Shown here in pieces: positions 1 to 38,018 of a stretch of 44,628 nucleotides of DNA. The position numbers and the translations under genes were made by a program. Below the pieces are notes generated by a model. The model saw only the letters and a program-made list of their open reading frames with translations, was not told the DNA's origin and did no database searches. The stretch lies in contig CAMBKF010000015.1 in assembly GCA_945868085.1 (NCBI GenBank), positions 1 to 44,628 of the forward strand. Reading direction: 5' to 3'. How positions within the stretch are numbered: position 1 is the stretch's first letter; every line of letters begins with the position of its first letter. Source of the stretch: an uncultured Oscillibacter sp. (GTDB lineage: Bacteria > Bacillota > Clostridia > Oscillospirales > Oscillospiraceae).

Positions 1-319
1 CGATGACATCCTGCGCATTGTCGGTCTTGGGAAGGCGCACCACCTGTACACCGGCCCGAACAACAGCCTCCAAGTCCTTAACGCCCAAGCCGCTGCTCAG
101 GTCATTGATGCGCACCACCGTTTCTTTTGTGCCGAAATGCAGGGTTTTTAGGGCGTTGTACACCAAAAAGCGGGCTGCGTCCTTCTCGGTATAGGCGACG
201 CTGTCCTCCAGGTCGAACATGATGGAGTCCGCGCCGTAGATGTGGGCGTCCCGGATCATACCGGGGTTGTTGCCCGGTACGAACATCATGCTGCGGCGCA
301 AGCGATCCTTCTTATACAT
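1..319 (-). CDS. citE: Citrate lyase beta subunit CitE, N-terminal part (runs off the window)
   Basis: CitE is the citryl-ACP lyase subunit of citrate lyase; it cleaves citryl-ACP to oxaloacetate and acetyl-ACP in the cytoplasm. The visible 106 residues start MYKKDRLRRSMMFVPGNNPG and continue with the family's conserved DSIMFDLEDSV block (the metal-binding acidic region follows in this family) and a VRLPKTD segment near the edge. The ATG at 319-317 overlaps the end of citD by 8 bases, so the two are translationally coupled, as in other citCDEFXG operons. The C-terminal two thirds, and any citF, lie outside the window. HpcH/HpaI aldolase-family relatives (malyl-CoA lyases) look similar, but the adjacent citD makes citrate lyase the better call. 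Confidence 0.88.
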   Translation of the reverse strand, partial: MYKKDRLRRSMMFVPGNNPGMIRDAHIYGADSIMFDLEDSVAYTEKDAARFLVYNALKTLHFGTKETVVRINDLSSGLGVKDLEAVVRAGVQVVRLPKTDNAQDVI

Positions 320-614
320 TCTGCCGCACCTCCCATGTGTAGTCATGGCATTGCGCTGCGCGGGTCAGGGCAGCGGCCACCCGAGCCCGGACGGTGCAGT
401 CCAGCGCGCCCTTGTCTACGGCGGTGATTACGGCATTCTTCACGCCGTATTCAGCCACCGTCTCCTTGATAACGGAGATGATCTGCTTGCCGAACTGCCG
501 ATAAACGCTGCTGGTCAGATCCACCTGTACGCCGCCCCCATCAGATGGCTCTACGGTGATCATAATGTCGTTGGATTCCATAGTCCCGGCATTGCCGGTG
601 GTGATGAGCTTCAT
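312..614 (-). CDS. citD: Citrate lyase acyl carrier protein CitD
   Basis: This is the 100-residue gamma subunit of citrate lyase. It carries the 2'-(5''-phosphoribosyl)-3'-dephospho-CoA prosthetic group on which acetyl and citryl groups are exchanged. The N-terminal GTMESNDI motif places a serine at residue 14, the position modified in characterised CitD proteins. The sequence also shows the family's QFGKQI and DKGALDCT blocks, and the length is normal. The start at 614 follows an AGAGGAG ribosome site. Upstream, 112 bases separate it from the C45 amidase gene, and that gap holds a strong hairpin; downstream it overlaps citE. Without citC, citX and citG in view, maturation of the prosthetic group must be encoded elsewhere or beyond the left edge. 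Confidence 0.93.
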   Translation of the reverse strand: MKLITTGNAGTMESNDIMITVEPSDGGGVQVDLTSSVYRQFGKQIISVIKETVAEYGVKNAVITAVDKGALDCTVRARVAAALTRAAQCHDYTWEVRQNV

Positions 615-675
615 TTACGTCATCTCCTCTGTCTGCTTTTGTTTCTTATTTCTTTCATATACGTATTTAGGACCA

Positions 676-701
676 GCGGCCCCTGGTCTTCCAGAGGCCG
701 C
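676..701 (-). other. Intercistronic hairpin between the amidase gene and citD
   Basis: An 11-bp stem (one G-U pair on the minus-strand RNA) closes a 4-base loop. No T-run follows, so it does not look like a classical terminator. It may protect or process the message between the C45 amidase and citD, giving different levels of the two parts. This role is inferred; the stem itself is visible. Confidence 0.55.
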
Positions 702-726
702 CGTGCTCGATGATGCCGCATCAAAA

Positions 727-1818
727 CTATAGAGGGAAGGTCTGGTATTCATTTTCGCAGGGGCATCCCTTACAGATGTAGGCGACCCCGGCTGTCAAAT
801 CATATATGGACGAGGCGATCGTTTTCCAAACCTTGCACTCATCATACTCGCCATGAGGGACATGGCTGCAAACAGCCTCTATGCAATTGGATTCGGGGTA
901 GGTATCCCCCGCTCCGGGGAATCGCTCATGGTTGCACAGAGCCTCACGGATATCAGAAAAGCTCAGCGTACCGTTTCCCTGCTGCAGCAGCCGCCGGAGA
1001 ACACCGTCCCGGAACTTTGTCCCCTGGTTCGTGCAGGCGGCCGCCCCCGCAATCATGTGATTTGCATGGGTAACAAGGCCATTTTCCGGTTGCACCTGAT
1101 AGATCTTTTGCGGTGTTGTTTCCAAATCCACAGCCATGTTTTCCGCGGATGCGAGCATGAAATTGCAGGAAACACCTCGTTTTGCAGATGTCACGGTATC
1201 TACCATCTCCTGGAAACAGCGGCTATTCAATGCCTTACGCCGCACGAAGGTCACAGGCGCACCAATATCACCACTGTCATAGATGGACGTCAGGTTGTTG
1301 GCGCAGAGGCCGATCCCGTGGTTGTTCATTCCGTTTCGCACCAGCTGCCCGGCCTCCGTAACACCGATGATATGCGTCCCCTGCAGGTCGTCAATATCTA
1401 CGATCACCGCATGGCGCTCCACCCATGGGCGGTAGTCCCAGTTTTGCAGCAGGTATACCTTCCCGCCGCTGGCCTCTTTCAGGATGGCGCCCGTCGTACA
1501 TTCCTGCAGCTTGAGCTTGAGAATCTCATAGCGGCAATTCAGTGCCATGATCTCATCCACGGCAACGCCGCTACCCTCCGCGATTCCGAGCATTTCCTGG
1601 AATTCCTCCGGATAGTGTTCGTTCACGAAGTCCGTATAATAATGGCTCCGCTTCACCACGGCATCCCACGACTGGCCTACCGACCTCTGAAATTGCCGGT
1701 GGTAGCCCTCGATCGCCCGGCGGATTAACGCTTCGGCCTGCTGTCCATACTGGACACCCCGGGCAAATGGGTCGCTTCCACGCAGCTTAACGCAAAGGAA
1801 CTGGTCAGTTTGTGCCAT
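727..1818 (-). CDS. C45 family autoproteolytic acyltransferase/amidase
   Basis: This 363-residue protein belongs to the Ntn-hydrolase family C45, related to acyl-CoA:6-aminopenicillanic acid acyltransferase. These enzymes self-cleave before a cysteine that becomes the N-terminal nucleophile and then hydrolyse or exchange amide bonds. The LQECTTGAI motif places the predicted nucleophile at Cys107, followed by the family's LLQNWDYRP block, a GMNNHGIGLCANNL segment and a later THANHM segment. The ATG at 1818 is preferred over a GTG one codon upstream; the gene overlaps the end of tctA by 14 bases. Because it sits between a TctABC transporter and citrate lyase subunits, it probably acts on an imported amide or N-acyl compound. 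The substrate is unknown, and a peptidase-like or lactamase-like role is possible. Confidence 0.83.
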   Translation of the reverse strand: MAQTDQFLCVKLRGSDPFARGVQYGQQAEALIRRAIEGYHRQFQRSVGQSWDAVVKRSHYYTDFVNEHYPEEFQEMLGIAEGSGVAVDEIMALNCRYEILKLKLQECTTGAILKEASGGKVYLLQNWDYRPWVERHAVIVDIDDLQGTHIIGVTEAGQLVRNGMNNHGIGLCANNLTSIYDSGDIGAPVTFVRRKALNSRCFQEMVDTVTSAKRGVSCNFMLASAENMAVDLETTPQKIYQVQPENGLVTHANHMIAGAAACTNQGTKFRDGVLRRLLQQGNGTLSFSDIREALCNHERFPGAGDTYPESNCIEAVCSHVPHGEYDECKVWKTIASSIYDLTAGVAYICKGCPCENEYQTFPL

Positions 1819-3334
1819 CACTGTCGCCCCCTACCCGTACCTTTTTTCTGCGCTGGATTGTATTTTTGATCATCGGCCAAAACAGCATGATAACGGCAAC
1901 AGCCAAAAGCACCAGCGCCAGTGGGCGGGTAAATAGCGATAAGGCATCACCCTTAAAGGTCATGATGGCTGTCCGGAAGTTCAGTTCAACGGTCGGTCCC
2001 AGCACATATCCCAGCGTCAGGGGCGCTATAGGAATATCCACCTGCTGGAACACATAGCCGAGAACGCCCATAGCAAAGAATACCCAAATGTCGAACACGC
2101 GGTTGTTTGTGGTAAACGCGCCTATCAGGCACATCAGCAGAATCACCGGCATCATGTAATTCATGGGCGTAGAGAGGATCTTGATAAAGTACTTCAAGAA
2201 CAGAAGATACATCACATACATAGCGATACACGCCAGAATGTACGCAAAGTAGATGGTGCCGATCACTTCGGGGTTGCTGCTGAAGAGCGATGCGCCAGGT
2301 GCCAGACCGTGTACGATAAGGCCGCTCATCAGCATCGCCGTAATCGTGTCGCCGGGAATGCCCAACGTCATCATAGGGATCAACGCGCCGCCGCACACCG
2401 CATTATTGGCACTTTCCGGTGCGACGATACCCTCCGCACAGCCGGTGCCGAACTTCTCCGGCTCCTTGGAGGAATTCTTTGCCTGATTATATGCCACCAG
2501 TGCGGCCGTGCTTTGGCCCACTCCCGGCAGTACGCCGATCAGTGTACCGATAATGGAGGAAATGCAGAGACTTTTCTTCAAGCCCTTGAATGCACCCTTA
2601 CGGGGCAGGACAGTCCTCCGCTCATCGCTGTCCACCTGATTCATGGGCTTGCCGAGGTTCTTCAGCTGCGAGAGGATCTCACCCAGTGCAAACAGGCCCA
2701 TCAGAACCGTCATCTCGCCGAAACCACCACTCAAGCGCCACCAGCCGAAGGTGAAGCGCTCCAGCGAGGACAGCTTATCCATGCCGATCATCGCCAGCAT
2801 CATGCCGATAATAGCGCTGATCAGTCCCTTAATCATATCATCGCTGCACAAGGAGATGACCACCGCAAGGCCCATAATGCCCAGCGCGAAATACTCCCAC
2901 GCTCCAAACATCAGACCGAAGCGAGCCAGCTTTGTGGCCACAAAAATCATGACTACACCGCTGAACAGGCCGCCGATCAGGCTGGCCGTTGCGCCGTAAC
3001 TCAACGCCCTGTAAGGATGTCCGTTTCTTGCCATGGGTGCGCCATCGAAGCATGTGACGATGGCAGCGGCATTTCCGGGGATATTCAGCATAATGGAGGC
3101 GATCAAGCCGCCGGATACGCCGCCCACATAAATACCAATCAAAACAGTAATGCCCTGCGTAGGGGACATTGCGAAGGTAAATGGCAGCATCAGCGAAACG
3201 CCAAGGGCGCCGGTAAGGCCCGGGATCGCGCCGAATACAATGCCGCCAAAAACGCCTATGAGAAAATAGAGGATAGTCAGCGGATCTTCAAAAATAGCTG
3301 CCGCACCGCTAAAAACAAGGTTTAATGCAGACAT
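1805..3334 (-). CDS. tctA: Tripartite tricarboxylate transporter large permease TctA
   Basis: TctA is the large membrane subunit (509 residues, about 12 membrane segments) of a tripartite tricarboxylate transporter, a secondary carrier driven by an ion gradient that takes up citrate-like carboxylates delivered by TctC. The N-terminal GAIPGLTGALGVSLMLP block and the following NIPGNAAAIVTCFDG segment are typical, and a related GVLPGVGQSTAALVAYN segment occurs mid-protein, in keeping with the internal duplication known for the family. The start at 3334 follows a GGAGGAG site. A 134-base gap separates it from tctC upstream; downstream it overlaps the amidase gene. Length and motifs are intact, so it looks functional. 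Confidence 0.93.
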   Translation of the reverse strand: MSALNLVFSGAAAIFEDPLTILYFLIGVFGGIVFGAIPGLTGALGVSLMLPFTFAMSPTQGITVLIGIYVGGVSGGLIASIMLNIPGNAAAIVTCFDGAPMARNGHPYRALSYGATASLIGGLFSGVVMIFVATKLARFGLMFGAWEYFALGIMGLAVVISLCSDDMIKGLISAIIGMMLAMIGMDKLSSLERFTFGWWRLSGGFGEMTVLMGLFALGEILSQLKNLGKPMNQVDSDERRTVLPRKGAFKGLKKSLCISSIIGTLIGVLPGVGQSTAALVAYNQAKNSSKEPEKFGTGCAEGIVAPESANNAVCGGALIPMMTLGIPGDTITAMLMSGLIVHGLAPGASLFSSNPEVIGTIYFAYILACIAMYVMYLLFLKYFIKILSTPMNYMMPVILLMCLIGAFTTNNRVFDIWVFFAMGVLGYVFQQVDIPIAPLTLGYVLGPTVELNFRTAIMTFKGDALSLFTRPLALVLLAVAVIMLFWPMIKNTIQRRKKVRVGGDSDGTN

Positions 3335-3468
3335 ATACTCTCCTCCTGGAGTTTTGAATAGGGTTTGCAGACCTCTTCATAAAAGCTGCCGCAGGGCCGA
3401 GAGGCGGCACTCCACACGGAGACAAATGCGCTCCCCGGCCCGACAGCTCATGGGTTCTGCCTCACAGC

Positions 3469-4461
3469 TTAGTCGTTGGCGTGCAGTCTGGCATAGATCT
3501 CCTGATAGACGCCATAGTAGTACTCGCCGTACTCATGCATTTCTTCGTTGGTCATCCAGTTGGGGTTCTGTCCCATCTCAAGCAGCTTTGCCTGGGTGTC
3601 AGCGTCATTCAGGCACTCATGCAGCTTCTCCGTCAGAATGTCCACGATCTCCTGAGGCGTGTCGGGATGGATGTCCCAGCAGCGGGTCAGACCCACCTGC
3701 AGGTCGCAGCCGATCTCCTTGAGCGTGGGGACCTCGGGCCAGAAATCAAGGCGCTCGCTGGAGCCGACGGCCAAGGCCTTCAATTCGCCGGAGGAAATGC
3801 TGCTCTTAGCACCGGAGGCGAAGGAGCAGAAAACATCCGCATGACCGCCCAAAACAGCCGCACGGCTCTTAGAGGCATCATCATAGGGAACATAGTTGAA
3901 CTCGCACCCGGCGACAGACCACAGGTTCTCCGAGTTCATCTGATTGAAGCCGCCGGCGCCCACAGCCGCCCAGTTCAGCTCACCGGGATGCTCCTTCGCA
4001 TAGGTGAACAGCTCTTCGATGGTGTTAAAGGGGGAATCTGCCGCAACGGAAATGCACAGGGGGTCATACACAAAGCAGCCGAGATAGGTGAACTGCTTAT
4101 AGAAATCCTCGTTGAGCTGGCCGGACACAAAGCCGGAGGCCATCACCTCAGGGGAATGCATGAACAGGGTATAGCCATCAGCGTTGCCGGAATCCTTCAT
4201 GTATTCGATGGCAGCGGCGGAGTCGCCGGATGTGTTCTGGATCACAACAGTCCAGCCAAACATATCGTGCAGGCGGGTCGCGATCGTGCGGGCGGTCAGG
4301 TCGTGCTCACCGCCCGCAGAAAACGGGACGATGACGGTAATGGGCTTTTCCGGATAGTTCTCAGTCTCTGCGCCATCGGACGTATCGTCCTTGGCGTTGC
4401 CACAGGCTACCAATGACAAACTCATGAGCAGCGTGAGGATAAGTGCAAGAATTCGTTTCAT
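3469..4461 (-). CDS. tctC: Tripartite tricarboxylate transporter substrate-binding lipoprotein TctC (Bug family)
   Basis: This 330-residue extracytoplasmic solute receptor of the TctC/Bug family binds the carboxylate substrate and presents it to TctA/TctB. A lipoprotein signal ends in LSLVACGNA, so Cys19 would be lipidated. Family marks are the YPEKPITVIVPFSAGGEHDL block, a GWTVVIQNTSGDSA loop and the VPTLKEIG segment near the end. The chosen start at 4461 is preceded by AAGGACGG at suitable spacing; a longer frame from 4503 lacks a ribosome site. The order tctB-tctC-tctA differs from the Salmonella tctCBA order. In Bug proteins the bound ligand varies widely (citrate, tricarballylate, amino acids, nicotinate), so the ligand cannot be read from the sequence. 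Confidence 0.9.
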   Translation of the reverse strand: MKRILALILTLLMSLSLVACGNAKDDTSDGAETENYPEKPITVIVPFSAGGEHDLTARTIATRLHDMFGWTVVIQNTSGDSAAAIEYMKDSGNADGYTLFMHSPEVMASGFVSGQLNEDFYKQFTYLGCFVYDPLCISVAADSPFNTIEELFTYAKEHPGELNWAAVGAGGFNQMNSENLWSVAGCEFNYVPYDDASKSRAAVLGGHADVFCSFASGAKSSISSGELKALAVGSSERLDFWPEVPTLKEIGCDLQVGLTRCWDIHPDTPQEIVDILTEKLHECLNDADTQAKLLEMGQNPNWMTNEEMHEYGEYYYGVYQEIYARLHAND

Positions 4462-4532
4462 TTCATTTTCCGTCCTTTTATAATTATATTTTTGGGTCTG
4501 CATCCACAGACAGGGAATACTTTTTTTGCGCG

Positions 4533-5021
4533 TTACTTAAAGATACCCGCCGGCAAGCGAACGCCCAGAGCTATAGAAAACAGGCAGTACACGACAGCGA
4601 CCGCAATAACGGTAATCAGCAGACATATCAGCACCTGTTTCAGCAATTCCTTTCCCCGTAGCTTTCCTTTGGCCTCAAGGGTGAAGAACAGCAGCAGGCT
4701 CAGAAGCATCAACACAGAAGAAACGATAAAGCCCAGTGTTTCCAGCAGTGCAATATACAGCGCGATGATCACCACAGTCACCAGCACTCGCTTTGTTACA
4801 ATCTTCGGCGCCGGCTCGGAGGGCCTTTTCCGTAGGCTGCGCACGATCAAGGCTACTGACAGAATGCCTAAAATGCCTGTCCACAGCAAAACATATGTAT
4901 CTGCGCGAGCCAAGAAGTATTTTGCGGATGCGTCCTGCATGATGTACGCGTACACGAAGCTGACCACGCTGAAGACCAATAGCACAATACCCAAGACAAG
5001 ATCCTGTATCCACTTTTTCAT
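4533..5021 (-). CDS. tctB: Tripartite tricarboxylate transporter small permease TctB
   Basis: TctB is the small membrane subunit of the tripartite tricarboxylate transporter. The 162-residue protein shows four hydrophobic segments: about residues 8-28, 43-60, 77-112 (a long double segment) and 130-150, as expected for the TctB family. A charged cytoplasmic stretch (RSLRKRPSEPAPKIVTKR) lies between the second and third. The start at 5021 follows GAGAGGTG and lies 10 bases after the stop of the upstream deacetylase gene, so the two are in one transcript. Small size and low sequence conservation mean the call leans on membrane topology and position next to tctC and tctA. Confidence 0.85.
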   Translation of the reverse strand: MKKWIQDLVLGIVLLVFSVVSFVYAYIMQDASAKYFLARADTYVLLWTGILGILSVALIVRSLRKRPSEPAPKIVTKRVLVTVVIIALYIALLETLGFIVSSVLMLLSLLLFFTLEAKGKLRGKELLKQVLICLLITVIAVAVVYCLFSIALGVRLPAGIFK

Positions 5022-5031
5022 AGCGCACCTC

Positions 5032-5859
5032 TCAAGCGTTGTTCTCTATGATATATCGGGCAATTTCCTTCCCTGTCGCTATCCAGATGTTTTTTCTGGA
5101 GAGCTTTTCCAAAACCGTGCGCAGCATGAACATCCGCCCGGGAGAACCAATCGTCTGCGGCGTGACGGACAGTACATAGCAGTATCCGCCGTCATAGGAA
5201 GCCTCCAGCTCCCGAAGCCAGTTGTCCAAAACCTCGTCATAAATCGCCACACGGTCATTGCCGGCGGGATAGCTGTCGCCCCACGCCAGATAGGGGAAAT
5301 CAAGAAGTTCCCATCGTGTGGGAATCTCCACCATATCCGTTTTCTCCCCATCCAGCTCGACACGGTAGGGGATATCGTGGTCGAAGAAGGAGTTATCGTA
5401 GAGAAAACCCTTGTCACAGATGACAGAGAGTGTCTCTTCTGTGCAGCCCCCTTCCGGCAACCGGAATCCCAACGGTTTTTCCCCGGTCATACGCTCCAGT
5501 ACCGTAATGCCCTTTTCGAGGATCTTCTCCTGCTCTTCTACAGGCAGCTTAGCGAAGTTCTCGTGGCGGTACCCGTGCAGTGCGATCTCGTGACCTGCAT
5601 CGGAAACCCGCTTGAGCACCTGCGGATATATTTCTGCGAAAAGGCCCGGGACAAAGAATGTTGCCTTGACGCCGAATTCCTCCAACAATGACAGGATCCT
5701 GTCCACGCCGCGCTTAGGGCCATACTCACCCATTGAGCGGTGCTTCGGGGTGTCGTACTTCTTTTCGTCCATTGCCAGCCAAATAAACTCGGCATCCAGC
5801 ATGACGCATAGCATGGCCGCTGACTGTTTACCGTGCGGCCAAATCATTTCCGGTTTCAT
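5032..5859 (-). CDS. Polysaccharide deacetylase family protein (PuuE/allantoinase-like), copy 1
   Basis: This 275-residue protein is a NodB-fold carbohydrate esterase 4 relative, closest in layout to the PuuE-type enzymes that hydrolyse cyclic ureides or amides rather than chitin. The metal site is visible as Asp22 (LDAEF) and the HGYRHE motif (His95 and His99). A FRLPEGG block follows, and near the C-terminus is SVTPQTIGSPGRMFML, a typical PuuE-like ending. There is no signal peptide, so it acts in the cytoplasm. The GAGGAGG site just before 5859 and the 12-base gap to the next gene upstream place it in the transporter operon. Its substrate is unknown. A second homologue lies directly upstream, so the two may act on different intermediates or form a heteromer. 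Confidence 0.82.
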   Translation of the reverse strand: MKPEMIWPHGKQSAAMLCVMLDAEFIWLAMDEKKYDTPKHRSMGEYGPKRGVDRILSLLEEFGVKATFFVPGLFAEIYPQVLKRVSDAGHEIALHGYRHENFAKLPVEEQEKILEKGITVLERMTGEKPLGFRLPEGGCTEETLSVICDKGFLYDNSFFDHDIPYRVELDGEKTDMVEIPTRWELLDFPYLAWGDSYPAGNDRVAIYDEVLDNWLRELEASYDGGYCYVLSVTPQTIGSPGRMFMLRTVLEKLSRKNIWIATGKEIARYIIENNA

Positions 5860-5871
5860 GTGTCGGCCTCC

Positions 5872-6720
5872 TCAATAGTTTGCACGCCACCACTCGGCGA
5901 TCTCTTTTCCTGTGGCGAACCATACATCGCCCTTGTCCAGCATATAGTCAAGCAACTCCTCCAGCATATATGCCCGACCGGGGATCCCGATGATCTGCGG
6001 GTGCAGCATAAATGTCATGCAGCCGCCTTCGCTGTAATATCCGTCAAACTCATGCTTCCAGTTGGAGAGCACACCACGGTAGCTGGATATGCGGCTCTGA
6101 CCTTTCGGCTGAGGCGGATCATAACTGTAAACAAAGAAAGGATAATCATCCAGCTCCCAGCGGGCGGGGATCTCGATGAAATCGGACTCCTGTCCGTGGA
6201 ACACCGTCCGATAGGGGCGGTCATCACCTCGCATGGAACTGGAGTAGGAAAAGCCCAGCTGCTCATGCCATATTTGCGGCGCATCCATCTGAAAATCGCT
6301 GGAGGTTGCCACATAGCCTACTGCGCGCTTCCCTATCAGACGCTGGAATGTATCCTGGGCACGGTTGACCACGTCAATCCACTCCTCCGTAGAGCGATCC
6401 GTATACATATGCTCTTCATGGTCGAATCCATGAAAGCCGATCTCATACCCACAGGCATCGATCTTCTTCACCATTTCGGGGTATCGCTCTGCGATTTGGC
6501 CCGGAATAAAGTAGGAGCAGGGTATCCCCTTTCGCTGGGTAAGTTCCAGCAGCCGGTCAACGGCCCGCGTGGGTCCGTATTTGCCGTAGGAAACGCGCCG
6601 TGGTGATGGGGCTTGCGGATTTCTGTTGTACAGTGATTCGCCGTCTACATGGATTGTAAGTAGAACAGCGCATTTTGCGTGATTTGGCCAGCGAATGGTT
6701 TCTTTTTCCGCTTGAAACAT
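5872..6720 (-). CDS. Polysaccharide deacetylase family protein (PuuE/allantoinase-like), copy 2
   Basis: This is the first gene of the minus-strand operon and a paralogue of its downstream neighbour (282 residues). It keeps the NodB metal triad: Asp26 in HVDGES, and His97 and His101 in HGFDHEEH. The C-terminal block MLHPQIIGIPGRAYMLEELL is well aligned with the PuuE-type family. No signal peptide is present, so a cytoplasmic hydrolase is expected. The ATG at 6720 is chosen because AGGAGGGAAAAGG lies directly before it; a longer frame starting at 6756 would contain that ribosome site and the palindrome. The two paralogues differ strongly in sequence, so they arose from an old duplication. The reaction is probably hydrolysis of a C-N bond; the substrate is not determined. 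Confidence 0.82.
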   Translation of the reverse strand: MFQAEKETIRWPNHAKCAVLLTIHVDGESLYNRNPQAPSPRRVSYGKYGPTRAVDRLLELTQRKGIPCSYFIPGQIAERYPEMVKKIDACGYEIGFHGFDHEEHMYTDRSTEEWIDVVNRAQDTFQRLIGKRAVGYVATSSDFQMDAPQIWHEQLGFSYSSSMRGDDRPYRTVFHGQESDFIEIPARWELDDYPFFVYSYDPPQPKGQSRISSYRGVLSNWKHEFDGYYSEGGCMTFMLHPQIIGIPGRAYMLEELLDYMLDKGDVWFATGKEIAEWWRANY

Positions 6721-6754
6721 GGTGACCTTTTCCCTCCTGCCTTTGTCAAATTGC

Positions 6755-6769
6755 ACATACTTTGTATGT
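6755..6769. promoter_or_regulatory. Palindrome in the divergent lysR-deacetylase intergenic region (candidate LysR site)
   Basis: ACATAC-TTT-GTATGT is a perfect 6-bp inverted repeat with a 3-base spacer, and it contains the T-N(n)-A symmetry (ATAC...GTAT) typical of LysR boxes. It lies about 35 bases upstream of the first operon gene, close to where the operon promoter should be. Binding by the adjacent LysR protein is inferred from position. Confidence 0.5.
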
Positions 6770-6847
6770 CACAGTCTATCACGAGGTGTCTTTTTTGTCC
6801 AATACCAAAGTCTATATGGGAGATATAACAAAAAACGCATATCTGTC

Positions 6848-6876
6848 TTGCAGACGCACATTCTCTGTGCTATCAT
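6848..6876 (+). promoter_or_regulatory. Sigma-A-type promoter of the lysR gene
   Basis: TTGCAG and TATCAT are separated by exactly 17 bases and lie 38 bases before the lysR start codon. The match to the consensus is 4 of 6 and 5 of 6. Confidence 0.55.
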
Positions 6877-6914
6877 ACTATCCAGAGTAGAACTATCCAT
6901 GTTGGAGGATCATC

Positions 6915-7910
6915 ATGCCTTATTCAAAATATCAGTATGTTGCAAAGGTCGCAGAGCTACAAAGCATATCGAAGGCAGCTGCTAAATTGTTTATCTCTCA
7001 GCCGGCGCTTACCCGGATTATCCTGAACATCGAAACGGAGTTAGGAACCACACTTTTCAATCGTTCTGTCCTTCCCATTCAATTGACCTACGCCGGAAAG
7101 CGTTATTTGGAAGAGGCTCGACGTATTTGGGAGATCGACAAATCCTTTCGGCGAGAGTTGCAGGAGATCTCCGAACTTAAGCGTGGTGTCTTGAACATCG
7201 GAATAAACTATGCAGCCGGGGCACTTTGGTTGCCGCTCATTTTGCCAGAATTTCACCGGGAGTATCCAGCTGTCACCATAAACTTGACGCAGCGCAGCTC
7301 CATGCTATTTGAGCTGGATCTGCTGCGCGGTAATATTGATTTAGCCTTTACCACACAGACAGATGCATCCGCAAACCTTACATATGAATATCTGTCCTCA
7401 GCTCGGATCCTGGCTTTCATTTACAGAGACCACCCCATCCTCCGCGGCATGAATATTGACGACAACGGCGTTGACAATCTTCTGACCTTGCCTCCGCAGC
7501 TTTTTGACGGGCAGGACTTTGTGCTGCTGCACTCCGCAGACGGGTTTGGACACACTGTGGAGAAAATGATGGAGAATTTAAACATCCGCCCGGCACACAT
7601 CATGTACGCGCCAGACATCGTATCCTGCTGCCGCTTAGCTGCTGCCGGGATGGGCATTACATTTGCAACGCCATATGCCACGCACTACACATTGCCAGGT
7701 GCTGTGCCGGTCATTGCCGGCGTGTCGACCAGCGTTGCCTATGAGCACAACGCCATCGCCTTTTCAAAGAAAAAAGAGCTGAATACGATTGAGAAGCGTT
7801 TTATCTCTCTTGCACGGGCAAAGATCTCGGATTCTCCGAGCTTGCATCCGCTGACGGGAGCACAGTGGCAGCAGCTTCGAGACGAGAAACACGAGATGAA
7901 CGGAGGCTGA
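6915..7910 (+). CDS. LysR family transcriptional regulator
   Basis: This 331-residue LysR-type regulator has an N-terminal winged helix-turn-helix (about residues 1-60; the recognition region reads SISKAAAKLFISQPALTRII) followed by a two-lobed ligand-binding domain. It starts at 6915 after a GGAGG site. It is transcribed divergently from the tct/citrate lyase operon, the usual arrangement for a LysR protein that activates its neighbour in response to a pathway metabolite. The effector may therefore be the transported carboxylate or a breakdown product, which is inference. The C-terminus is slightly extended and charged. No defect is visible. Confidence 0.9.
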   Translation: MPYSKYQYVAKVAELQSISKAAAKLFISQPALTRIILNIETELGTTLFNRSVLPIQLTYAGKRYLEEARRIWEIDKSFRRELQEISELKRGVLNIGINYAAGALWLPLILPEFHREYPAVTINLTQRSSMLFELDLLRGNIDLAFTTQTDASANLTYEYLSSARILAFIYRDHPILRGMNIDDNGVDNLLTLPPQLFDGQDFVLLHSADGFGHTVEKMMENLNIRPAHIMYAPDIVSCCRLAAAGMGITFATPYATHYTLPGAVPVIAGVSTSVAYEHNAIAFSKKKELNTIEKRFISLARAKISDSPSLHPLTGAQWQQLRDEKHEMNGG

Positions 7911-7986
7911 ATCTGACCCTTCTGTCAAGTGGTTTTGAGATATTTTTTGAAAAATCCCCAAAGCACATAGTTGCGAGTAAAGTCAA

Positions 7987-8154
7987 TCAGGCAATATCCG
8001 CTTTCTGCAAAGCCATTGCTTCTTCTTCAATCAGATTCTTTACAATCTCCTCCTGCGTGTGCCTTGCGTTCTCTGCGGGCATTGCGTTGACAACGAAAAT
8101 CGTACCGCCAATTTTCTCCACAAAAAAGCCGGTTTTCATATCCACCGCGGTCAT
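7987..8154 (-). CDS. TnpW-like transposon-encoded small protein (mobile-element remnant)
   Basis: The 55-residue product (key part KTGFFVEKIGGTIFVVNAM, then a ENARHTQEEIVKNLIEEE helix) resembles the TnpW family, small proteins carried by Tn4451-type and related conjugative or mobilisable elements of Clostridia. The start at 8154 follows GGAGGGAGGTG; the same frame runs open to 8394, but the extra N-terminal part spans two hairpins and lacks a ribosome site. No recombinase or mobilisation gene is in view, so this looks like the leftover end of an element. The function of TnpW is not known. The family call rests on pattern memory of a short sequence. Confidence 0.6.
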   Translation of the reverse strand: MTAVDMKTGFFVEKIGGTIFVVNAMPAENARHTQEEIVKNLIEEEAMALQKADIA

Positions 8155-8173
8155 CACCTCCCTCCGTAAAAAT

Positions 8174-8199
8174 ATGGGCGTCCGTTTCCAAACGCCCAT
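8174..8199. repeat. 8-bp inverted repeat upstream of the TnpW-like gene
   Basis: ATGGGCGT and ACGCCCAT form a perfect 8-bp inverted repeat around a 10-base loop, just upstream of the TnpW-like ribosome site. The GGGCGT core also appears in the larger inverted repeat about 90 bases to the right, which suggests the two hairpins are related or belong to the same element. Confidence 0.6.
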
Positions 8200-8284
8200 T
8201 CTCTCTTGAGACAGCTCGGCATACGGGGGCATAGCTGGCACCTCCTTTTTGCTGCCTAATTGCCGATTTGCTCCCGAAACGCAG

Positions 8285-8341
8285 AAACGCCCAAAATCGC
8301 CCTGAACCCATACAGTGGGGTCAAGGCGATTTTGGGCGTTT
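8285..8341. repeat. 17-bp perfect inverted repeat (8285-8301 / 8325-8341)
   Basis: The arms AAACGCCCAAAATCGCC and GGCGATTTTGGGCGTTT are exact reverse complements, separated by 23 bases that themselves contain ACCC...GGGT symmetry. It is one of the longest perfect stems in the window. It lies between the TnpW-like gene and the broken AbrB gene, so it may be an element end, a recombinase site or a transcript hairpin; the sequence does not decide among these. Confidence 0.75.
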
Positions 8342-8482
8342 TCCTTCGATATGAACGGCTTTGTTTTGGCGGCGGTTCCTTTACCGTCCGCCATTTAAAA
8401 AAGCCGCCGTTTGTCGCTTTCGGGTAACAATAAATATTTCACCCCTCGCGAGTCCCCACGGTCGCGCCCTCATCCTCCGTTA

Positions 8483-8665
8483 CTATGTACAATCCAGCCC
8501 CCATCTTCTTGACAGATCCAGCATAGCAAAGCAAAATCTCTCCCACCGTGTCAATGTCATCTGTGATGGGTCTCCCTCGCGGATACGCATGGTGCGGCGT
8601 ATCTCCTTGGGGATCACCACCCGCCCCAGGTCGTCGATGCGGCGCACGATTCCGGTTGCTTTCAT
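8483..8665 (-). pseudogene. Truncated SpoVT/AbrB family transition regulator
   Basis: The first 33 residues (MKATGIVRRIDDLGRVVIPK, then EIRRTMRIREGDP) match the N-terminal half of the SpoVT/AbrB swapped-hairpin DNA-binding domain almost exactly. After GDP the expected LEIF...GEVILKKY strand is missing and the frame continues with unrelated residues to a stop at 60 codons. A SpoVT protein would be about 180 residues. The ATG at 8665 still has an AAGGGAG ribosome site. The truncation lies close to the mobile-element remnant, so insertion or deletion there probably broke the gene. A functional short AbrB protein is less likely, because the DNA-binding fold is incomplete. Confidence 0.7.
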
Positions 8666-8938
8666 ATAAAAACTCCCTTTATTTCTTATTTTTGCAAAAA
8701 TAGTATTTGCCGGATTCGGGAGATTATGCGGCGCCCAGGCGGGCACATTTGTTTTTTCGGACGCGCTTGTTTTGCGCGCCGATGCACAGACAAAAAAAGA
8801 TGCGCAGCCGCAGGTGCGGGAGCCGCTGCGGCGCGGGACGGGCAAAAGTTTGTTGTTTTTTTCCATGAAAATTCCCGGCCCCCTCCCGGCCCACAAACGG
8901 CACATTTTACAAAAAATCCCCATTTTGCAAAATGACTG

Positions 8939-8967
8939 TTGACATTTCCCGCCCCGGCTGTTATTCT
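8939..8967 (+). promoter_or_regulatory. Sigma-A promoter of the T-box leader
   Basis: TTGACA and TATTCT are separated by 17 bases. Transcription would start near 8974, directly before the T-box stem I. Between this promoter and the AbrB remnant (8666-8938) no gene is seen. Confidence 0.75.
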
Positions 8968-8973
8968 CACACC

Positions 8974-9257
8974 ATCACAAACGCGATGACACAGAGTAGT
9001 AAGCAGGGCGATGCTCTCAGAGAAGTGCCGGGTGGTGCGAGGCACAGTGCGATCCAACTGCCGAACTGGTTGTACAGCGGCTGCGTTGAACCCCCAGTAA
9101 ACGCAGACGGGCGCTCCCGTTACAGTGCAGGAATATGATGGTATTCCGTTGAGTGTGCTTCGCGCGCCGCGAAGCAAAGAAGAGTGGTACCGCGGAGGGT
9201 TTTCAGCCTTTCGTCTCTTCTGCCAAAAGGCAGGAAAGACGAAAGGTTTTTTGTTTT
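8974..9257 (+). promoter_or_regulatory. T-box leader, tryptophan type (specifier TGG), with terminator
   Basis: The leader senses uncharged tRNA and lets transcription continue when the amino acid is scarce. The conserved T-box sequence AGTGGTACCGCGG is at 9183-9195. Stem I shows the AGTA loop-E strand near 8995-9001 and the opposing GAAC-TGG strand, giving the specifier TGG at 9067-9069 (tryptophan). The terminator is a long stem at 9207-9248 (CCTTTCGTCT...AGACGAAAGG) followed by TTTTTTGTTTTT. The tRNA-end-pairing bulge reads TGGT, which would pair best with a discriminator A, while bacterial tRNA-Trp usually has G; a G-U pair could bridge this. It controls the permease and dehydrogenase genes that follow. 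Confidence 0.92.
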
Positions 9258-9298
9258 TCTGCCAAACACCCAATCATTTTTGCAGGAGGAACAAAACA

Positions 9299-10522
9299 AT
9301 GAAAGCAAGCACCAAAAAGATCCCCAAGACCCCGTTTATAGCCGCCTTCTCCGTAGGCGCCGTGCTGTTCTCGGCCCACGCAGGCGGCGGCTTCGCCACC
9401 GGCAACCAGGCAAACACCTACTATGTGGGCCTGGGCTGGACCGGCGTTCTCTCGGCCGTTGTAGCCATGCTGCTGCTGACGCTGACCATGCGGGAGGCCA
9501 TGATCATGTATAACTCCCGGGGCCTGAAAACCTATAAGCAGCTTTTTGAGACCCTCTACCATCCCTTTGACAAGCTTGAGTGGGCCTTTGAGATATTCTT
9601 CTACATCATGGTCCTCATGGCTGTGGCCGCGGCCATCTCCGGCGCCGCCTCCGCCCTGAACAATTACTTCACTTTGGATTACTACATCGGCGTAGTGGTG
9701 GTGGGCCTCATCGTGCTGACCCTCACCATCTTCGGCGCAGGCATCGTCCGGGCCGCCTCCACCTACATGGGTCTGGCCATCCTGGTCACCGCCATCAGCA
9801 TCTACATCATCGGCATTTTCAAGAGCGACAGCAGCATCTTCTCCGTCCTGGCCGCTGACTTCCGGACCACCGGCTTTGCCAACATCCCCAAGGCCATTCT
9901 CAACGCCTTCACCTATGCGGGCTTCCAGTGTGTGACCCTGCCCACCATGGTGGCCTGCGGCACCACCATGAAGAACAAAAACGGCTGTGCCAAGGCCATG
10001 TGGATCTCCTTCGTCATGAACGCCGTGGCCCTGGTCCTCTCCGTGTTCATGCTCCTCAGCTGGCAGAGCGTCTATACCTCGGTGGAGGGCGGCAGCACCA
10101 TCCCCACCCTCACCGTGTGCAAGGTCATCGGCATGCCCGCTATGGTGGCCGTGTACGGCACCTGCCTGCTCCTGTGCCTCATCTCCACCGGCGTGACCAC
10201 CATCTTCGGTTTCGTGGCCCGGTTTGAAAAGCTCCGCATCTTCCGGGGCATCAAGTCCGCCCCCGTCCGCAGCGCCATCGTTTCCGCCTTCATCATCGTC
10301 CTCTCCATGACCATCTCCATGGCCGGCCTCACCAACATCATCAAGTACGGCTATGGCTACTGTGGCTACCTGGGCATTGCCGTGGTGGTGGTTCCCTTCC
10401 TCACCGTGGGCGTTTACAAAAACCGCAAATATTGCCGCGCGCACGCCTTTGCCAACGCCGCAGAGGAGACCGCCCAGGCGCCCCAGGCGGAGATCTGCCC
10501 CGATACCGTGGCCGCAAATTAA
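9299..10522 (+). CDS. YkvI-like membrane permease, probable tryptophan transporter
   Basis: The 407-residue protein has about ten to eleven membrane helices and starts with a FSVGAVLFSAHAGGGFATGN segment typical of YkvI-type proteins, distant relatives of the LeuT/APC-fold amino-acid transporters (the unwound first helix with the GGGFATG motif is the expected substrate-ion site). The ATG at 9299 follows a GCAGGAGGAAC site, right after the T-box terminator; a longer open frame upstream runs through the leader RNA and is not used. Control by a TGG T-box argues that it imports tryptophan or a close derivative. YkvI proteins are poorly characterised, so the substrate is inferred from regulation only. 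Confidence 0.82.
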   Translation: MKASTKKIPKTPFIAAFSVGAVLFSAHAGGGFATGNQANTYYVGLGWTGVLSAVVAMLLLTLTMREAMIMYNSRGLKTYKQLFETLYHPFDKLEWAFEIFFYIMVLMAVAAAISGAASALNNYFTLDYYIGVVVVGLIVLTLTIFGAGIVRAASTYMGLAILVTAISIYIIGIFKSDSSIFSVLAADFRTTGFANIPKAILNAFTYAGFQCVTLPTMVACGTTMKNKNGCAKAMWISFVMNAVALVLSVFMLLSWQSVYTSVEGGSTIPTLTVCKVIGMPAMVAVYGTCLLLCLISTGVTTIFGFVARFEKLRIFRGIKSAPVRSAIVSAFIIVLSMTISMAGLTNIIKYGYGYCGYLGIAVVVVPFLTVGVYKNRKYCRAHAFANAAEETAQAPQAEICPDTVAAN

Positions 10523-10567
10523 AACCGATATTTCCAGATCATATTATTATATAGTGAGGTGTACCTT

Positions 10568-11632
10568 ATGCAAAAAGCTCTTTTTCCCGGTTATACCGTA
10601 GGCCCCGACGCCTACGAGGACGTTGTGAACGTTTGCCCCGCTTACGGAAAAAAGGCCGCCATCATCGGCGGCAAGCACGCCCTGGCCGCCGCCGAGGATA
10701 AGATCCGCCAGGCGGTGGAAGGCTCCGGCATCCAGATCATCGGCACCTTCTGGTACGGGGGCGAAGCCTCCCGGGAGAACATGGATAGGCTCCGGCCCCA
10801 GGTGGCGGAGGCGGACATGATCTTCGCCGTAGGCGGCGGCAAGGCCATCGACACCTGCAAGGTCCTCTCCCACGAGACGAACCGCCCCTTCTTCACCTTC
10901 CCCACCATCGCCTCCACCTGTGCCGCCTGCACAAGCCTTGGCATCGTGTATCATCCGGACGGCAGCCTGCGGGAGTACTCCTTCTCCAAGATCCCGCCCA
11001 ACCACATCTTCATCGACACGGAGATCATCGCCAATGCCCCGGTGCGCTACCTGTGGGCCGGCATGGGCGACACCATGGCCAAGCACTATGAGTGTACCAT
11101 CTCCTCCCGCAATGATATCCCTGCCCACTCCGATGCCATGGGCATCGCCCTGAGCACCATGTGCGCCGAGCCCATCGTCCGCTGGGGCCGGCAGGCTATG
11201 GACGACTGCCGCGCCCACCGCATCACCCCGGAGCTGACGGAGATCATCGAGGCCATCATCATCTCCACCGGCTTTGTCTCCAACTTCGTCCAGGTGGACT
11301 ACACCACCGGCATGGCCCACGCCATGTATAATGGCTTCACCATCCTGCCCTCCACGGAGAAAAACCATCACCTCCACGGCGAGGTGGTGTCCTACGGCAT
11401 CCTGGTGATGCTGACGGCGGATAAGCAGTATGAGGAGCGGGACCGACTGATGCAGTTCAGCAAGTCCATCGGCCTGCCCACCTGCCTGGCGGACATCCAC
11501 GCCAGACCCGAGGATCTGCCTGCCGTCACGGAAAAGGCCCTGGCGGGCATCGATGTCCGGGTGTGGCCCTATCCCGTCACCCAGCAGATGCTCATTGACG
11601 CGGTGATGGAGCTGGAGCAGGCCCAGAAGTAA
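10568..11632 (+). CDS. Iron-containing alcohol dehydrogenase family, HcxA/GldA-like 2-oxoacid reductase
   Basis: This 354-residue NAD(P)H-dependent dehydrogenase of the glycerol dehydrogenase/HcxA branch shows the GGGKAIDT nucleotide-binding motif, the PTIASTCAACTSL block, WAGMGDTMAKHYE with a metal-ligand aspartate, and HAMYNGFTILP and HGEVVSYGILV with candidate metal-ligand histidines. The pattern is closest to E. coli HcxA (YbdH), which reduces 2-oxoacids to 2-hydroxyacids. The ATG at 10568 lies 6 bases after GAGGTG. It sits 45 bases after the permease gene with no terminator between, so it belongs to the same tryptophan T-box unit. Reduction of an aromatic 2-oxoacid such as indolepyruvate is therefore plausible but unproven. 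Confidence 0.83.
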   Translation: MQKALFPGYTVGPDAYEDVVNVCPAYGKKAAIIGGKHALAAAEDKIRQAVEGSGIQIIGTFWYGGEASRENMDRLRPQVAEADMIFAVGGGKAIDTCKVLSHETNRPFFTFPTIASTCAACTSLGIVYHPDGSLREYSFSKIPPNHIFIDTEIIANAPVRYLWAGMGDTMAKHYECTISSRNDIPAHSDAMGIALSTMCAEPIVRWGRQAMDDCRAHRITPELTEIIEAIIISTGFVSNFVQVDYTTGMAHAMYNGFTILPSTEKNHHLHGEVVSYGILVMLTADKQYEERDRLMQFSKSIGLPTCLADIHARPEDLPAVTEKALAGIDVRVWPYPVTQQMLIDAVMELEQAQK

Positions 11633-11666
11633 ACCGGACGAGAACCCCCGACACACCAACGAAACG

Positions 11667-11719
11667 CACCCCATTTGTCAGGCCATGCGGCATGCGGCCT
11701 GATAAATGGGGTGTTTTCC
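11667..11719 (+). terminator. Rho-independent terminator after the T-box operon
   Basis: An 18-base stem (CACCCCATTTGTCAGGCC with its near-perfect complement, one mismatch) closes an 11-base loop and is followed by TTTTCC. Confidence 0.85.
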
Positions 11720-11745
11720 TGCGCCAAAAGGGCCGGCGCGGACTA

Positions 11746-11774
11746 TTGCGCAAAAGGGCTTTGCCCTGTATAAT
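11746..11774 (+). promoter_or_regulatory. Promoter of tex
   Basis: TTGCGC and a consensus TATAAT are 17 bases apart, 41 bases before the tex start codon. Confidence 0.65.
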
Positions 11775-11815
11775 GGAGAGGAAATTTTTTGTGAGACGAG
11801 AGGAAAGAAACAGTA

Positions 11816-13984
<2,169 letters not shown>

Positions 13985-14056
13985 CCTGCACCCCCAACCG
14001 CTGTATATAAGCACTTCCAGATGCACTCGCCATGACGCGCATCCGCGGCGCAAGTA

Positions 14057-14095
14057 ACTATCCGCTCATCTTTTGAGATGGGCGGATAGTTTTTC
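14057..14095 (+). terminator. Rho-independent terminator of tex
   Basis: ACTATCCGC pairs with GCGGATAGT around an inner TCATCT/GAGATG stem, followed directly by TTTTT. Confidence 0.85.
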
Positions 14096-14147
14096 CGCAT
14101 TTCATGCTGCTTACGGTAATTTTGTGCGTCAGCCTATAAGAATCAAA

Positions 14148-14176
14148 TTGACTTCCCACTGTATGCATGCTATAAT
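14148..14176 (+). promoter_or_regulatory. Near-consensus promoter of the TetR-surface protein operon
   Basis: TTGACT and TATAAT are separated by 17 bases containing the palindrome ATGCAT. The start codon of the TetR gene lies 43 bases downstream. Such a strong promoter next to a TetR gene suggests repression by its own product. Confidence 0.85.
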
Positions 14177-14218
14177 TAGTACATATATTAGTTTGTAAAG
14201 GAAGGGCTGCATTTTTCT

Positions 14219-14923
14219 ATGAGAAAAGACGGCATGGCAACCAAGCAGAAGATCCTCACCGTGTGTGTCCGCCTGTTTTTGGAGCAGGGGTATAAGGAGA
14301 CCACCATCACGCAGATCACCGAGGAGGCGGGGGTGACCCGGGGCAGCTTTCAGAATCTGTTTCCCACCAAGGACGCGGTGCTGATGGAGCTGGTGGAGAC
14401 CATGTTCGGCGGCCAGTTCGGCGCGGCCCGGACCATCACGGGCGGCGGCCTGCCGCCGGTTTACGCCTACGCGGCGGAAACGGCCATCCAGCTGACCCTC
14501 ACGGAGCTGAACGAGAACCTGCGGGAGATCTACCTCGAGGCCTACACCCTGCCGGACACGGCGGAGTACATCCATCTGCACACCACCGCGGAGCTGAAGG
14601 AGATCTTCGGGCCCAGCTTCCCCGGGTACAGCGACAGTGATTTTTATGAAATGGATATTGGCACGGCAGGACTCATGCGCGGCTACATGGCGCGCAAATG
14701 CGACATTCATTTCCCCCTGGAGCGCAAGCTCGCCCGGTTTCTGACGGCGTCCATGCGGGTATTCAAGGTCCCGGAGGCGGAGCAGGAGCGGGTGCTGGCC
14801 TTCGTGGCAGGGCTGGACATCCGGAGCATCGCCGAGAACGTGATGGAAAAGCTCTTCACCATGCTGGAGATGAAATTTGACTTCAAACTGTCAGAGGATC
14901 AGGAAAGGGAGGAGCGCACATGA
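14219..14923 (+). CDS. TetR/AcrR family transcriptional regulator, coupled to surface-protein genes
   Basis: This 234-residue regulator has a TetR-type helix-turn-helix at about residues 8-55 (ILTVCVRLFLEQGYKETTIT then EEAGVTRGSFQNLFPTKDAV) and an all-helical C-terminal effector or dimerisation domain rich in acidic residues. An AAGGAAGGG site lies about 12 bases before the ATG at 14219; an internal ATG at 14234 is possible. Its stop overlaps the start codon of the collagen-like protein (ATGA at 14920-14923), so the two are translated together. TetR proteins are usually repressors of their own operon; here the regulated load would be two large surface proteins, not an efflux pump. The effector is unknown. 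Confidence 0.88.
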   Translation: MRKDGMATKQKILTVCVRLFLEQGYKETTITQITEEAGVTRGSFQNLFPTKDAVLMELVETMFGGQFGAARTITGGGLPPVYAYAAETAIQLTLTELNENLREIYLEAYTLPDTAEYIHLHTTAELKEIFGPSFPGYSDSDFYEMDIGTAGLMRGYMARKCDIHFPLERKLARFLTASMRVFKVPEAEQERVLAFVAGLDIRSIAENVMEKLFTMLEMKFDFKLSEDQEREERT

Positions 14924-16827: not shown

Positions 16828-16842
16828 TAAGGAGGAAAGGGA

Positions 16843-31297: not shown

Positions 31298-31876
31298 TTA
31301 CGCTACCCCGCATCGGACGATGAGAAACGTCCCATTCTTTTTCACGAACAGGGTGAGCATATCCTCCGCATCGGCCAGAGTTTCGGCCCTGGCATTGTCA
31401 GCGTGGCTGATTTTGCGCACCGTGTACCGGAATATTCTGCCGGTCATATCGGTGAACGTAACTTCCTCGCCGGCGTCCAGCTGATCGGCAAAATCGAAAT
31501 TGCCGGCTTCGCTGCTCCCGCCTACGATCAGCGTGCCGTCATACACGCTGCCCGAAAATTTGGCCGGACGGAAGCCCTGCTGGGAGCTGTCCCATTCTGC
31601 GGCCACCGGCAGCTTAATGCCCCGGCCCGGCAGCTCCAGCAAGCCGATCATATCGACCCCGTCGATTTCCACGGCGGCCATGGTGCTGTCGGCGCGCTTT
31701 TCCATAACGCCCGCCGAGCGCTCCGGCAGAGCCGCTTCGATTTTTTCCACCAGAGAGGGGATGTCAGCCGCCCCTTGCTTTTCCCGCGTCAGGCGCATGC
31801 CCAATAGTGCCGCCGCCGCGGCCAGCAGTACAGCACCCAGCGTGACAAGAAGGATGGAAAACCCTTTACTTCGCAC
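31298..31876 (-). CDS. Sortase-fold protein lacking the catalytic residues
   Basis: The 192-residue product has one N-terminal membrane segment (about residues 7-27) and then a domain that follows the clostridial sortase pattern: GLLELPGRGIKLPV, FSGSVYDGTLIVGG, GEEVTFTDMTGRIFRYTV and a final LTLF...VRC. The expected catalytic His (HNY position) aligns with Ser121, the expected Cys after LTLFT aligns with Lys179, and the expected Arg aligns with Phe184. All three are replaced, yet the frame is intact. The start is a GTG at 31876 after GAGGAAGAAG, overlapping the pilin gene by 11 bases, so it is translated with the pilus operon. It may be an accessory or regulatory pseudoenzyme. Confidence 0.78.
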   Translation of the reverse strand: MRSKGFSILLVTLGAVLLAAAAALLGMRLTREKQGAADIPSLVEKIEAALPERSAGVMEKRADSTMAAVEIDGVDMIGLLELPGRGIKLPVAAEWDSSQQGFRPAKFSGSVYDGTLIVGGSSEAGNFDFADQLDAGEEVTFTDMTGRIFRYTVRKISHADNARAETLADAEDMLTLFVKKNGTFLIVRCGVA

Positions 31877-33658: not shown

Positions 33659-33777
33659 GGGTTCATCTCCAGTTGCGTTCCAAAGCGCACGAAGCCGAAC
33701 ACGCGCTGGCCCGGCCGCCTGAAAAGCGCGCCGCCGGGTGTATTCGGATGCGTCCACCTTGGAAAAGAATATGCCGT

Positions 33778-33810
33778 CCGGGGGGCGGAGGCGAACCTCC
33801 GCCCTCCGGG
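33778..33810 (-). other. GC-rich hairpin between the major pilin and sortase genes
   Basis: CCGGAGGGCGGAGG and CCTCCGCCCCCCCGG pair around a 4-base loop on the minus strand, with a one-base bulge. No T-run follows. It probably stabilises the 3' end of the pilin message or attenuates transcription, so that pilin is made in excess over the sortase. Confidence 0.65.
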
Positions 33811-33837
33811 GCAGTACAGTGTGTCAGGGCTGCAGGA

Positions 33838-35259: not shown

Positions 35260-35360
35260 TGTGTGTATCCTTTCTGATTTAAGTGATTTTATCGAGTGGA
35301 CATCGTTCCTGCGGCGCGGGCACAGGTGTATTTCGCGTGGGCAGGAGAGGAGCAGGATCG

Positions 35361-37988: not shown

Positions 37989-38018
37989 GCAAATTTCTCC
38001 CCGTATTTCAAGGCGATG

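Follow-up and report, generated by a model that had tools for sequence, protein, structure and literature searches.

Genes at the left end of the contig

The DNA analyzed here (the window) is a stretch of 44,628 nucleotides that makes up the entire contig C15 (CAMBKF010000015.1; G000:C15:1-44628) of the 1.96 Mb metagenome-assembled genome (MAG) of an uncultured Oscillibacter sp. (GCA_945868085.1, G000, 84.5% complete), and its left end carries genes for two PuuE-like hydrolases, a TctABC transporter, a C45 hydrolase and citrate lyase. An earlier reading made from the letters alone (the sequence-only reading) had placed eight minus-strand genes in this order within the first 6.7 kb, which was borne out by the gene coordinates and family profiles, and Pfam cut-offs were exceeded by all eight. 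From right to left they are the NodB/PuuE-like hydrolase PuuE2 (5872..6720, ATG start, the open reading frame extending to a GTG at 6756; PF01522) and its paralogue PuuE1 (5032..5859, PF01522); TctB (4533..5021; PF07331, 61.3 bits), TctC (3469..4503; PF03401, 121 bits) and TctA (1805..3334; PF01970, 465.4 bits), which are the small membrane subunit, the solute-binding lipoprotein and the large membrane subunit of a tripartite tricarboxylate transporter (TTT); a C45 autoproteolytic N-terminal nucleophile (Ntn) hydrolase/acyltransferase (727..1821, GTG start, ATG at 1818); citD (312..614), for the citrate lyase acyl carrier protein; and citE (2..319, PF03328), for the citrate lyase beta subunit. 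The gaps between them are 12 (PuuE2-PuuE1), 10 (PuuE1-tctB), 29 (tctB-tctC), 134 (tctC-tctA), -17 (tctA-C45) and 112 bases (C45-citD). On the plus strand, a LysR-type regulator gene (6915..7910; PF03466 and PF00126 above cut-off) diverges from PuuE2. Rfam gave zero matches in positions 1-9000, and within positions 1-7200 the promoter-like sites were at shuffle level (6 versus a shuffle mean of 6.0), with 9 terminator-like sites versus 5.7 (standard deviation 2.5) in shuffled sequence.

The C45 protein scored 214.9 bits against the curated cut-off of 85 of NF040521, and its nucleophile Cys108, Asn-Trp-Asp and His-x-Asn-His positions align with those of the C45 structure 2x1d and were invariant in 7/7 aligned relatives; it is thus a family member, and the feature that sets it apart from the known family is its genetic surroundings of Tct and PuuE genes. 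Its closest named relatives come from MAGs labelled Oscillibacter, Angelakisella and Eubacteriales. As in known TctABC transporters, all three subunits are encoded together, each above its Pfam cut-off; unlike in them, hydrolase genes flank the transporter genes on either side. The solved chain nearest to TctC is 25hk, and the nearest chains are named TTT substrate-binding protein, BugD and similar. CitD scored 120.9 bits in TIGR01608 (equivalog cut-off 63.5). Both citD and citE are present as had been claimed, the latter only as a fragment of 106 residues cut by the contig end, which scored 158.9 bits over 101 of the 288 positions of TIGR01588 (cut-off 443.4); its ortholog in the same-genus genome G005 (locus L012) is 99.1% identical and reaches 459 bits.

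Locus L008, on an uncultured Oscillibacter MAG contig, carries LysR, PuuE2, PuuE1, TctB, TctC, TctA and C45 in an order and orientation identical to the window, with protein identities of 65, 87, 77, 68, 77, 86 and 69%, respectively. DNA similarity between the two loci falls into three blocks within positions 752-7700 of the window, starting at the end of C45 and reaching into LysR, and outside this interval consists of one 50-base match within citD. Judged by these alignments, PuuE2-PuuE1-TctB-TctC-TctA-C45 with the divergent LysR is a real module with sharp homology ends, and citD is a neighbor outside it. The conserved-set search that the sequence-only reading had suggested thus recovered the order of the six genes from PuuE2 to C45, and the LysR gene, absent from its gene list, belongs to the module as well.

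With a single C45 protein as query (E<=1e-30), matches were obtained in 5/199 relatives, and with the C45 profile A4 in 4/394 genomes of the order, 8/398 of the phylum and 4/255 of the family at E<=1e-60, and in 2/32 of the genus at E<=1e-50; the PuuE profile A1 (E<=1e-30) matched 2/295 and 6/398 genomes. These draws of genomes overlap, and every tally counts G000 itself. Among the plasmids of PLSDB, 281, 286 and 58 records matched PuuE2, PuuE1 and C45, respectively.

The PuuE-like pair

The name NodB/PuuE-type hydrolases given to PuuE2 and PuuE1 by the sequence-only reading holds for the NodB superfamily (PF01522, 81.8 and 47.3 bits for the two proteins versus a gathering cut-off of 23.1) and not for the enzyme PuuE: identity as PuuE allantoinase (TIGR03212) was ruled out by scores of 86.6 bits for PuuE2 and 84.7 bits for PuuE1 against the equivalog cut-off of 424.6. 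The nearest solved relatives are 3rxz and then 3qbu, and the two proteins are 33% identical to each other. PuuE2 keeps the full Asp38/His109/His113/His252 set (DHHH; numbering from the GTG at 6756), and PuuE1 reads DHHT, with the last His replaced by Thr. The Asp/His/His residues, which we take to be those of the metal site, and the later His presumably have the roles that they have in the family.

Adjacent PuuE-like pairs were present in nine loci: the window, L008, L033 and L034 (both from the window's phylum), L041 and L047 (Burkholderia), L076 (Caballeronia), L044 (Paracoccus) and L077 (Ochrobactrum). The first member of the pair was DHHH at the four positions in 9/9 and the second in 0/9 (DHHT in three, NSCH in three, and DHHD, DHTR and SHIH in one each), and the single PuuE-like genes taken from other loci were DHHH in 21/21. 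When the 18 pair members were placed in a tree with 14 of the singles, pair members separated from singles (support 100/99), and a branch with support 93/92 divided first members from second. We infer from this pattern one old duplication kept adjacent, with a second copy whose lost residues differ between lineages, which would resemble a catalytic subunit with a structural or regulatory one.

The settings of the pairs vary. All five Proteobacterial pairs (L041, L044, L047, L076, L077; neighbor names of L077 are readings of translations) lay with amino-acid ATP-binding cassette (ABC) transporters and an MmgE/PrpD protein, and four of them beside an ArgH-like lyase, which was not listed in the Paracoccus locus L044, where arginase and ornithine cyclodeaminase genes are nearby. 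In L034, the pair has a member of the Asp/Glu/hydantoin racemase family and a binding protein of the amino-acid type nearby. Candidate substrates in keeping with such settings are amino or polycarboxylate compounds closed into a ring. Argininosuccinate forms cyclic anhydrides, and the Proteobacterial pairs may possibly belong to a scavenging pathway for argininosuccinate or these anhydrides. Separately, a PuuE-like gene on a Rhizobium plasmid (L079, 8968-15810) has IucA/IucC genes for siderophore synthesis ~2.5 kb away; the stretch read of a related island in Agrobacterium (L100) has no IucA/IucC genes.

Citrate lyase in the neighborhood of C45 genes

C45 genes lay beside cit genes in 4/7 close loci (the window, L008, L012 and L013), with three kinds of importer. 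Genes at unannotated loci were called with a codon-usage script trained on the genes of the window and L008, and several names (the oligopeptide-type (Opp) transporter subunits, NhaC-like, YtcJ, citC and citXG of L013, and others) are readings of translations. Beyond the module, L008 has citC and citXG in reverse and then citD, citE and citF, with citE (360.2 versus 443.4 bits) and the CitG half (255.2 versus 272.3) below their equivalog or subfamily cut-offs. In L012, a different cassette stands in the same orientation upstream of a citD orthologous to that of the window, and is composed of a Crp-type regulator, a C45 gene (43% identical to the window's), an Opp ABC transporter and an M28-family peptidase, with 1030 bases from C45 to citD. 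In L013 (G104), genes for an Amidohydro_3 protein, AbgT and C45 (32% identical) are followed by reverse citXG and LysR, and then by citD, citE, citF and citC. The other close loci (L009, L010 and L011, on contigs of 8.1, 4.3 and 9.5 kb) had no cit genes, nor had any of the 10 more distant C45 loci, among which L015 and L099 are one place and were counted once. Absence was assessed by tblastn over ~9 kb on each side for L091-L099 and by reading of gene calls for L009, L010, L011 and L014, and no citF was found in the genome of L014 either. The association of C45 with cit genes gave a Fisher p of 0.0147, a test that assumes independent loci, which these loci are not; by estimate rather than by a computed control, a random gene would lie 10 kb or less from citF, if citF is present once, in ~1% of genomes of 2-3 Mb. 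In general, C45 mostly accompanies importers for peptides or amides. At one C45 locus (L098, 4282-11031), the C45 gene shares a stretch of under 7 kb with genes for a PuuE-like protein, a carbon-nitrogen hydrolase and a cytosine/purine/allantoin-type permease.

We tentatively propose, as quite possible, that the window carries a module, under LysR control, for the catabolism of a polycarboxylate with a ring or an amide, and that this module lies beside citrate lyase because its product would be citrate or a compound that feeds citrate lyase. A number of observations speak against such a link. A GC-rich hairpin with a 13-bp stem and a 4-base loop, without a T-run (674..703, minus strand), sits between C45 and citD, and a 14-bp hairpin, likewise without a T-run, follows C45 in L008; the former is a possible end of the module transcript, and the module and the cit genes are probably separate transcripts, because GC-rich hairpins follow C45. 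At the DNA level, citD-citE of the window shares 90.6% identity with contig C18 and 82.7% with contig C63 of G005, two loci of one same-genus genome, whereas the CitE and CitD of the window are only 48.6% and 51.0% identical to those of L008; by these values the citD and citE of the window are neighbors of other descent than the module. The claim that eight genes act together was hence too strong, and what stands is the unit from PuuE2 to C45. Moreover, Tct and PuuE genes were not seen in the stretches read of L012 and L013, and 13/17 C45 loci had no citrate lyase nearby. The C45 gene is not bound to citrate lyase, since in the genomes of L009 and L010 citF was located on a different contig and in G890 (L011), whose C45 is 57% identical to the window's, no citF was found. 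On the C45 tree, in which the L094 row is to be disregarded (it was cut in the wrong frame and has a very long branch, so that the absence of cit genes there rests on tblastn of its stretch), the label of a cit neighbor needed three changes and 117/500 shuffles were equally low; the label does not cluster beyond shuffles and is not a clade trait.

The hairpin, the separate ancestry of the cit genes and the 13/17 loci would fit a module whose substrate is an unrelated small amide, imide or hydantoin-like compound, with citrate lyase as an incidental neighbor in two or three genomes, an explanation that we consider possible and somewhat doubtful. It also draws on the company that other PuuE pairs keep (MmgE/PrpD, ArgH-like or racemase-family genes) and on the plasmids, where no annotated citrate lyase was present in 19 PuuE regions, chosen non-randomly from the 50 PuuE matches listed and not including C45 matches (2/19 were unannotated, and PLSDB annotation is incomplete). 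Incidental proximity is, however, at odds with the fact that C45 repeatedly adjoins citrate lyases of different descent with different importers; for the whole module, two separate juxtapositions with citrate lyase are indicated because it adjoins lyases of differing descent in the window and in L008.

The distribution of citF also bears on a role of C45 within citrate lyase itself. Citrate lyase deacetylases exist, C45 relatives include acyl-CoA-dependent acyltransferases by family name, and adjacency to citrate lyase in four loci would fit a C45 that removes acetyl from the lyase acyl carrier as a thioesterase-type control. Nevertheless, the C45 of G890 without a detected citF, the distant citF of L009 and L010, and the usual travel of C45 with peptide or amide importers make this role highly improbable, and it was rejected on the distribution of citF among C45 genomes.

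The sequence-only reading had remarked that citrate lyase operons normally carry citC, citF, citX and citG. No citF was found in the assembly G000, whose contig stops inside citE, and the remaining cit genes are not seen in the window because the contig ends; in the congener G005 the orthologous place has the full set, citD-citE-citF-citC-citXG, and citF is present both there and beside the module in L008. The citD and citE fragment of the window are orthologous to the corresponding part of this bacterial citrate lyase operon (citDEF, citC, citXG), and the difference lies in the surroundings: other operons of the genus adjoin a CitMHS-type carrier (L069, L070, L071) and isocitrate dehydrogenase (L066, L070, L071) and have no C45 or PuuE (gene names of L071 are readings of translations, and the carrier of L069 scored 240.3 versus 259.7 in NCBIfam and above the Pfam cut-off). 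The sequence-only reading had held that its pathway would fail if related genomes showed complete ordinary citrate lyase operons without these enzymes, and the four same-genus loci go part of the way toward this; they count against our proposal. So does L074 of G112 (9046-14794), where TctC-TctB-TctA is directly followed by citD-citE-citF without PuuE or C45. The latter locus, together with a transporter family named for tricarboxylates, would fit an import of plain citrate by TctABC for citrate lyase, the PuuE pair and C45 having a side role. We regard this as unlikely, since the Tct proteins of L074 are far from those of the window (TctA 34%, TctC 24%, TctB unmatched), the citrate lyase operons L069-L071 use the CitMHS-type carrier, and in the conserved module hydrolases border the Tct genes closely on both sides. 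As a side observation, the two citrate lyase operons of G005 are 84.5% identical in DNA over ~3.5 kb, the one on C18 (L012) having the C45 cassette and the one on C63 (L066) isocitrate dehydrogenase.

In L072 (1673-11379), a citDEF-type set was observed together with genes for methylaspartate mutase, methylaspartate ammonia-lyase and a fumarase-type hydratase; this is probably a citramalate lyase branch of glutamate fermentation. The presence of such an operon in the genus could suggest that the lyase beside the module is a citramalate lyase, but the CitE of the window is 40.6% identical to the L072 type and 97.2% identical to the G005 copy adjoining isocitrate dehydrogenase; we rejected this identity on these values and consider it barely credible.

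Elsewhere in the window, two neighboring large predicted secreted proteins (14920-20529; 635 and 1228 aa) have very similar signal peptides, and translations at 31866-38579 read as an operon for pilin-type surface proteins that includes a gene resembling signal peptidase (38019-38579).

A possible route from a citrate conjugate to citrate lyase

In the route that we infer for the module, TctC and TctAB, transporters by family, would import the compound. A heteromer of PuuE2 and PuuE1, a pairing suggested by their conservation, with PuuE2 as the catalytic and PuuE1 as the degenerate partner, would open a cyclic amide or imide, as the chemistry of the family suggests. C45, with its active-site residues in place, would then cut the remaining amide into an acid and an amine or ammonia. 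Citrate lyase splits citrate into acetate and oxaloacetate, and CitDEF, with citF beyond the contig end, would do so here if the acid is citrate. In this form we predict that Clostridia-like bacteria would ferment a citrate conjugate (citryl imide or amide) by a route not yet described, through TTT import, heteromeric PuuE-type ring opening, C45 cleavage and citrate lyase. The pair of catalytic and degenerate subunits would have been kept from Bacillota to Pseudomonadota, and in related genomes two or more other importer cassettes would lead to the same last two steps; taken with all these parts, the prediction is rather unlikely to hold as a whole.

The nearest precedent comes from the breakdown of nicotinate in Aspergillus nidulans, where HxnM opens 3-hydroxypiperidine-2,6-dione and the amide hydrolase HxnN then yields alpha-hydroxyglutarate; the structure of HxnM resembles that of HP0310, and the protein shares 64.2% identity with a cyclic imide hydrolase homolog of Pseudomonas putida (PMC9304392). 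The likeness is that a PuuE/HP0310-related imidase opens the cyclic imide of a hydroxy acid and an amide hydrolase frees the acid, whereas that system, in the part of the source available, has one imidase gene, a different importer, amidase and product, and no citrate lyase (PMC9304392). PuuE itself is described as an allantoinase that acts on a small cyclic imide and is metal-independent (PMC3084791; PMC10967932). The PuuE-like proteins of the window share with that allantoinase (3cl6) the fold family and the presumed opening of a small cyclic amide, and differ in that PuuE2 keeps metal-site residues and in that two paired paralogues are present, both far below the allantoinase cut-off.

The sequence-only reading had suggested uptake of an amide- or ring-containing citrate derivative, its opening by the PuuE-like enzymes and C45, and lyase cleavage of the released citrate. 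This idea is upheld by the conserved unit, the repeated C45-cit neighborhoods and the HxnM-HxnN precedent, and weakened by the cit operons of related genomes without these enzymes, the separate descent and probable separate transcript of the cit genes, and L074. Its statement that no pathway with this set has been described agrees with our search, in which no description of the pathway or combination was found in the open-licence literature, and no paper linking beta-citrylglutamate, citrazinic acid or cyclic-imide citrate siderophores to these enzymes; this absence is weak evidence because the coverage was limited to open-licence papers. The enzyme families are already known, and it is the gene combination and the canonical-degenerate pair that were not found described there.

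If the proposal is true, anaerobic bacteria may ferment amidated or cyclised citrate compounds, an undescribed citrate-related food source, and annotation would now hide the enzymes for such substrates under the names 'polysaccharide deacetylase' and 'C45 peptidase'. Whatever the substrate, the widely kept canonical-plus-degenerate PuuE-like pair would help to find out what the uncharacterised NodB group around 3rxz does.

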